From Coriobacteriales bacterium (GTDB taxonomy: Bacteria; Actinomycetota; Coriobacteriia; Coriobacteriales; UBA8131), in NCBI GenBank assembly GCA_031256715.1, contig JAIRQA010000125.1, positions 1 to 48,391 on the forward strand: 48,391 bases of DNA, written 5' to 3'. How positions within the stretch are numbered: position 1 is the first letter of the stretch; every line of letters begins with the position of its first letter. Shown here one piece after another: positions 19,857 to 23,577 of the stretch. Under the pieces are notes generated by a model. It was not told where the DNA came from. It searched no databases and saw nothing but the letters and a program-made list of their open reading frames with translations. A program made the position numbers and the translations under genes.

Positions 19857-21254
19857 TTAAAGCAGGAATTCGCTGCCGCTGATTGTGGTCATAGATATGG
19901 CGTTAGTGCTGCAAACAGAAAGGCATCTGCCACAACCTACGCAGTAAAGACTGTCACAGTCTATGTAATATTGTGGTAACGGTTGGCTGTCATCAACATC
20001 GTCGTCTATAGTAATCTCTGAAAGGCGGCGAGCATGTACGGCACAGACGTCTATGCAGCTACCGCAGAGCGAACAAAGTGTTAAGTCTGTAGCGCTAACA
20101 GTAAGCGTGACGGCGTCTGCGCGCTTGGGGTTTCTTCCTAAGGCATCTACAAGGATATAGCGAGAAGGAACAACAATTCCCCTTGGAACAGTTTTTAGAG
20201 CTGCCGCTCCCGCTGCGCCGGTTGCGCCCGCCTTGTTAATCGCGCCTGCTAATCCTGCTAAGGTGCCGTTTTTTATGCCGTTAGCCCCGCCAGCCCCGTT
20301 TGCCCCGCCAGATCCACTTGCCGCCGTTAAGCTGGCTCCCAAACGCGTTCTTTTGTATGCCAGTTTACGATCGCGCTTCGCCTGCACTTCTATTAAGGCG
20401 CGATTTTCGTTGTTGCCCACCTCATCCCAGGTATTTTTCAGGCTCTTAAAAATTCCCGTTAGAGCATCGCGCCTATCTGCAGGGCGATGCACAGAGTCTA
20501 AAACGCCTTTTAATGACAAGTCTGGTTGCGTTGGCAGTTCACTTGTATCAACAAAAATTCCAACAGTCTTGCCAGACCAAAGTTCTGCTGTCCCAATAGC
20601 TTGCTCAAACAACTCCTCAACATTATTCTTAGCGTTTGCTGCACAGGCAGCGCATTGGGCAAATGGTAATAGTATGCTAGCATATTCTAATGCTGTTATT
20701 TCGATTTCGTTAAGAAGTGAAAACCAGACTTCTGCTCCAAGCATGCAGAGACAAGGAACGATGAAAATTTGTTCTTTAAGTGCATCTGGTACCTTTGCAA
20801 GCTGAGTTTGCGAACAGGTAACAATAAGATGCTCGCGATCTAAAGTGGCATCTAGTAGCTTGCGATTGATGTCCTGAATGGTCTGGCGCGTGCAAGACAA
20901 GGCACACATTGGACACATGCCCAGGCAGGCTCCACAACGAATGCAGTCATTGGCGACAACTAACGAATGCTCTTTGGCGGTGATGGCACCTACCGGACAG
21001 CCAGCGATGCAGATGTCGCATTCTGAGGGATGTGGCGCAAAGCGCTGACACATAGAAGACACGGCCATTGCCTTGCCTGCGCCGAAGTCGGCGGTCGTGG
21101 TAGCGCTGCTTGTCTTTAAGTCGGCGGTCGCGGTAGCGCTGCCGCTCGCAGCATGCTCAACGCCCGCGGTCGCGCTGCCGCTCGCAGCATGATCGGCGGT
21201 CGCACCGGCGCTGCCATTTGTTGTCTTGTTTGCGATTACGTTACTATCTGTCAT
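19857..21254 (-). CDS. Multi-cluster ferredoxin-like protein (two split 2[4Fe-4S] regions)
   Basis: A 465-residue protein. A repetitive Ala/Ser/Thr/Gly head (about 1-65, with HAASGSATA units) precedes a first ferredoxin region (CDICIAGCPVGAI and CIRCGACLGMCPMCALSC). A middle domain of about 190 residues has Cys-rich QCAACAAN, and a Gly/Ala linker follows. The C-terminal ferredoxin region has CSLCGSCIDVCAVHARRL and CVGCGRCLSVCSTNAISM. Up to four [4Fe-4S] clusters are expected. It has no signal peptide, so it probably acts in cytoplasmic electron transfer; the partner is unknown. It resembles NapF/HycB-type polyferredoxins only generally. It diverges from mazG across 20 bp and may be translated leaderless. 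Confidence 0.75.
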   Translation of the reverse strand: MTDSNVIANKTTNGSAGATADHAASGSATAGVEHAASGSATATADLKTSSATTTADFGAGKAMAVSSMCQRFAPHPSECDICIAGCPVGAITAKEHSLVVANDCIRCGACLGMCPMCALSCTRQTIQDINRKLLDATLDREHLIVTCSQTQLAKVPDALKEQIFIVPCLCMLGAEVWFSLLNEIEITALEYASILLPFAQCAACAANAKNNVEELFEQAIGTAELWSGKTVGIFVDTSELPTQPDLSLKGVLDSVHRPADRRDALTGIFKSLKNTWDEVGNNENRALIEVQAKRDRKLAYKRTRLGASLTAASGSGGANGAGGANGIKNGTLAGLAGAINKAGATGAAGAAALKTVPRGIVVPSRYILVDALGRNPKRADAVTLTVSATDLTLCSLCGSCIDVCAVHARRLSEITIDDDVDDSQPLPQYYIDCDSLYCVGCGRCLSVCSTNAISMTTISGSEFLL

Positions 21255-21260
21255 GAAAAC

Positions 21261-21268
21261 AGTATACT
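21261..21268. promoter_or_regulatory. Shared palindromic -10 element of the divergent ferredoxin and mazG genes
   Basis: AGTATACT is a perfect palindrome, so TATACT occurs on both strands. On the plus strand it lies at -12 to -7 from the mazG ATG (21275), and on the minus strand at -12 to -7 from the ferredoxin ATG (21254). This is the spacing expected if transcription starts at each ATG. No ribosome binding site exists on either side. The -35 elements are weak. Confidence 0.6.
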
Positions 21269-21274
21269 ATTACC

Positions 21275-23577
<2,303 letters not shown>

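Follow-up and report, generated by a model that had tools for sequence, protein, structure and literature searches.

Bacterial promoters can be bidirectional through symmetry of the -10 element, and one source (PMC10268837) places the opposite transcription starts of such promoters 7 to 25 bp apart, with 18 bp being the most common distance. The same source puts forward the view that bidirectional -10 promoters represent an early step in promoter evolution, frequently an undesirable one, which selection removes. Leaderless genes, which are common in Actinobacteria, are marked by a TANNNT motif lying about 12 bp ahead of the start codon (PMC3160421). Both ingredients were already known; their combination at the locus described here is unusually conserved and compact.

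The locus was detected in a 48,391-nucleotide stretch of DNA from a Coriobacteriales bacterium, hereafter the window. A 20-bp gap (21255-21274; GAAAACAGTATACTATTACC) separates a minus-strand ATG (21254-21252) from a plus-strand ATG (21275-21277), and the palindrome AGTATACT (21261-21268), a candidate -10 element shared by the two genes and kept in relatives, lies in mid-gap with its centre (21264.5) on the gap centre. The putative -10 box of the plus-strand gene is TATACT at 21263-21268 and that of the minus-strand gene is TATACT at 21266-21261, each being 6 nt ahead of its own ATG, at -12 to -7; the coordinates that had been predicted for this divergent arrangement proved exact. The minus-strand gene (19857-21254) encodes a 465-aa 4Fe-4S multi-cluster ferredoxin-like protein with an Ala-rich, lineage-specific N-terminal stretch, and the plus-strand gene (21275-22291) encodes MazG, a nucleotide pyrophosphohydrolase of 338 aa; Pfam assignments were to a multi-cluster 4Fe-4S protein and to MazG. 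The enolase gene, eno, follows on the plus strand (22288-23577). As the eno start overlaps the mazG stop (ATGA) and eno is syntenic with mazG, the two genes are probably co-transcribed as one operon. Through this overlap (22288-22291), expression of a gene of central glycolysis may hinge on a leaderless mazG promoter. In its 5' portion, the ferredoxin gene contains a 36-bp tandem repeat (2.3 copies, 21121-21203), which encodes the Ala-rich N-terminal stretch; relatives lack this stretch.

Comparison with the symmetric -10 bidirectional promoters of Warman et al. (2021), as cited in PMC10268837, indicated several likenesses: a -10 element readable on both strands (here two TATACT hexamers in overlapping register, sharing TATA), divergent genes and no need of a -35 element. 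The opposite starts predicted from box spacing, at the A of each ATG (21254 on the minus strand for ferredoxin and 21275 on the plus strand for mazG), would be 21 bp apart, which is within the 7- to 25-bp class but is not the 18-bp optimum. The reciprocal -7T/-11A coincidence that typifies the commonest 18-bp class, and is not required of all members, was absent, the register here giving 21 bp. Unlike those promoters, the present locus has its symmetry centred on TATA, has both predicted starts coinciding with ATGs and has an element that is kept family-wide for a pair of protein-coding units. The TANNNT leaderless genes of PMC3160421 resemble those at this locus in having the motif (TATACT at -12 to -7), no SD and an Actinobacteria-type lineage, but here two genes would depend on one box and the host is mostly SD led.

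Analysis of the start codons indicated that the annotated ATGs are the sole reasonable starts of ferredoxin and mazG. An in-frame stop directly upstream of mazG makes 21275 its first start, and the next in-frame candidate, a TTG at codon 34, falls within a conserved region of 11 protein letters. In ferredoxin, codon 1 is followed by no ATG, GTG or TTG until the conserved domain is reached, at about residue 56. A ferredoxin start at Met63 was ruled out, as this residue is just within the DFGxG region, which is conserved, and the ATG upstream of it, beside the box, is conserved as well. Hence the search for a start codon further inside either gene, as suggested with the original prediction, yielded no usable alternative. 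The absence of a ribosome binding site from both genes was borne out, there being no SD-like 4-mer within -17 to -4 of either ATG. Both genes therefore have the sequence characteristics of leaderless genes, namely, TANNNT at about -12 together with neither an SD nor an alternative start. Nothing out of the ordinary was observed in the 5'-end RNA structure at the locus.

In order to place these features in their genomic context, counts were made for 492 ATGs in 755 kb of sampled stretches of the host genome, the values being approximate since genes were called with a simple longest-ORF scheme. A TATANT starting exactly at -12 was detected for 7 of the 492 ATGs against a background of 0.85 per position (Poisson probability of about 3e-5, or 0.002 without ferredoxin and mazG themselves), while 243 of the 492 genes had an SD-like 4-mer. 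These results indicated that the host genome is mainly SD led and that leaderless starts are a small minority; the expectation of common leaderless mRNAs in Actinomycetota is supported by the literature (PMC3160421) but does not extend to this genome. The pattern CATN6ANTATANTN6ATG occurred once in 2.66 Mb, at the present locus.

The gene order, with ferredoxin divergent from mazG and eno following mazG, recurs in family f1, a Coriobacteriia-like family. A TATANT was located 6 to 8 nt ahead of the ferredoxin ATG in all 25 family f1 genes outside genus g6 (24 TATACT and one TATAAT); 24 of these boxes were identified by script and one, in G022, was read from the sequence, the locus match in that genome lying further inside the gene. 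The box was also present where mazG lies elsewhere or on another contig (G029, G014 and G025). This 25/25 occurrence is very strong support for a putative leaderless ferredoxin promoter that is ancient and conserved within family f1, and on the evidence of these relatives coincidence is excluded for the ferredoxin side. In genus g6, other boxes (TATCAT or TATGAT) precede the ferredoxin ATG and ATTATACT is found farther up toward eno. At the g6 loci L110 to L114, ATTATACT (TATAAT on the eno strand) is ∼70 nt upstream of ferredoxin's own TATCAT/TATGAT-like box, an arrangement resembling two promoters derived by the splitting of one shared box. A ferredoxin query of a collection of genome contigs found no named relative, and an enolase query, which is the basis for the Coriobacteriia-like placement, found Coriobacteriia records that lack the present arrangement.

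The second half of the palindrome was then considered. Eleven genomes of different genera that carry AG ahead of the box agree fully at positions -15 to -9 and -7 (identity of 1.0), with flanks at the random level of 27% identity, so that TAG plus TATANT is invariant across 11 genera; the corresponding footprint on the ferredoxin (minus) strand here is ATAGTATACT (21261-21270). The outer left flank AT (ferredoxin strand) is conserved with no right-hand mirror, and hence the palindromic symmetry of the footprint is imperfect. Where AG is lacking (seven genomes), TATACT alone stays and the bases ahead of it vary freely. Of the 15 genomes in which a divergent mazG or eno lies no more than about 250 nt away, 12 had AG, versus 2 of the 9 others (Fisher P of about 0.01), a split that is supporting rather than decisive as the cut-off was set post hoc and the genomes are related; G019, whose contig ends at the locus, was excluded from this count. 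The exceptions were G006, G024 and G027, with a close partner or a mazG remnant but no AG, and G007 and G003, with AG but no close partner seen (G003 being near a contig edge). In G027 (L095/L222), all that is left of mazG is a short C-terminal fragment separating ferredoxin from eno, and the symmetric half of the box is lost. As the TAG half is invariant and tends to accompany a close mazG or eno, we consider that the ATAGTATACT box is probably a selected bidirectional -10 promoter for ferredoxin and mazG-eno. The original prediction of one symmetric box common to both genes was upheld to this extent, with TATACT being present on both strands.

The best-surviving alternative, which we regard as unlikely, is that the box is a one-way leaderless ferredoxin promoter of incidental symmetry, with mazG being weakly transcribed or served by a promoter inside the ferredoxin gene. 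Retention of the ferredoxin TATACT even without a divergent partner would fit such an arrangement, as would the divergent mazG genes that lack the palindrome (G006, G024 and G017b) and the lack of a -35 element on the mazG side. However, incidental symmetry does not account for a TAG half that is invariant in 11 genera amid random flanks and is mostly lost where a close partner is absent, and a scan of about 70 nt of the ferredoxin strand showed no other conserved element. A weakness of the bidirectional reading itself is that no conserved -35 element was found in either direction, with matches of at most 4/6 that were not conserved, and that neither side had a TGn extension (extended -10); the box must therefore act by itself or together with factors that the sequence does not reveal.

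Somewhat less probable again is that ATAGTATACT serves as an operator, overlapping the ferredoxin -10 box, through which a dimeric transcription factor controls both genes. The element is near-palindromic, invariant and in a divergent region, and in G046 of family f8 two SD-led genes flank a longer palindrome, CGAGTATACTCG. Against this reading, the 8-mer AGTATACT showed no enrichment in the genome as a whole (41 sites, compared with 44 for a reversed control) and CATN7AGTATACT elsewhere in the family was similar in number to its reversed control (about 9 versus 11). No conserved operator was seen within about 70 nt of the box, nor any further conserved half-sites, and the core is itself a good -10 box at a fixed spacing.

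The mazG side of the locus was more variable. In most relatives that could be read, the mazG start is 29 to 71 nt from the box and mostly has an SD (G026, G015, G009, G016, G008, G022 and G004), and the possibility of a conserved leaderless mazG spacing was rejected. A leaderless-compatible spacing was found only in the present genome (G000; 6 nt) and in G018 (7 nt), which has the arrangement CAT-6-ATTATACT-7-ATG and a mazG that lacks an SD and carries an N-terminal extension of about 50 residues; the double-leaderless geometry is thus known from two incomplete genomes, with one genome representing the present genus. G006 is intermediate, with mazG 14 nt away and no SD; mazG of G024 has neither an SD nor the palindrome; mazG of G010 has a single in-frame start, at a distance of 121 nt and with no SD close by; and the script returned no in-frame mazG start for G021. 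Low-complexity N-terminal stretches similar to the Ala-rich stretch of ferredoxin were noted in the MazG proteins of G009 and G018. In the outgroup genome G046, CGAGTATACTCG lies between ferredoxin, with AAGGAA ahead of its ATG, and an SD-like mazG start. This sequence (L042/L225) is a 12-bp perfect palindrome ∼40 nt from both SD-led genes. These few genomes fit a stepwise loss of leaders, from both genes being SD led (f8) to a leaderless ferredoxin (f1) and then to both being leaderless (G000 and G018). Of the proposed back-to-back leaderless promoters, the ferredoxin one was very strongly supported and the mazG one had good support here, but a leaderless mazG start is not general in relatives; similarly, the symmetric spacing was conserved on the ferredoxin side (6 to 8 nt, 25/25) but not on the mazG side, where only G018 repeats the double arrangement.

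For the bidirectional -10 promoter, the proposed mechanism is that RNA polymerase binding in either orientation would melt one common TATA core. In the present genome each transcript would begin with the A of its own ATG, the two starts being 21 bp apart, and both the ferredoxin and the mazG message would be leaderless when translated. On the ferredoxin side, the promoter would be the ancient conserved leaderless one; mazG, with an SD leader in most relatives, may have become leaderless through leader loss, once here and once, separately, in G018. As the box is shared, momentary mutual exclusion of two polymerases is physically likely; one direction would be chosen per binding event, splitting initiation between the two genes rather than switching stable states. 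A true mutually exclusive switch, as originally predicted, in which a ferredoxin state and a mazG-eno state would alternate under regulation, is very improbable, since the exclusion that polymerase footprint size would impose on one shared box is limited to a single initiation event, no memory element, regulator or feedback is visible, nor any conserved operator within about 70 nt, and the box is kept in relatives despite differing downstream leaders. Random sharing of one promoter, giving a fixed expression ratio, is simpler than a switch.

Between two protein-coding units, the box looks conserved in at least 11 genera, and where the partner gene is gone the second half of the box tends to be gone too, so the locus offers a natural experiment on whether selection can act on bidirectionality in its own right. 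The gap is also among the smallest plausible regions for starting two genes, and the locus illustrates how SD-led genes can turn leaderless. We suggest tentatively, as a proposal with slightly less than an even chance of being correct, that a selected bidirectional -10 box couples ferredoxin to mazG-eno in a fixed ratio and that it may have allowed the stepwise loss of leaders, leaving a 20-bp promoter and start signal in this organism.
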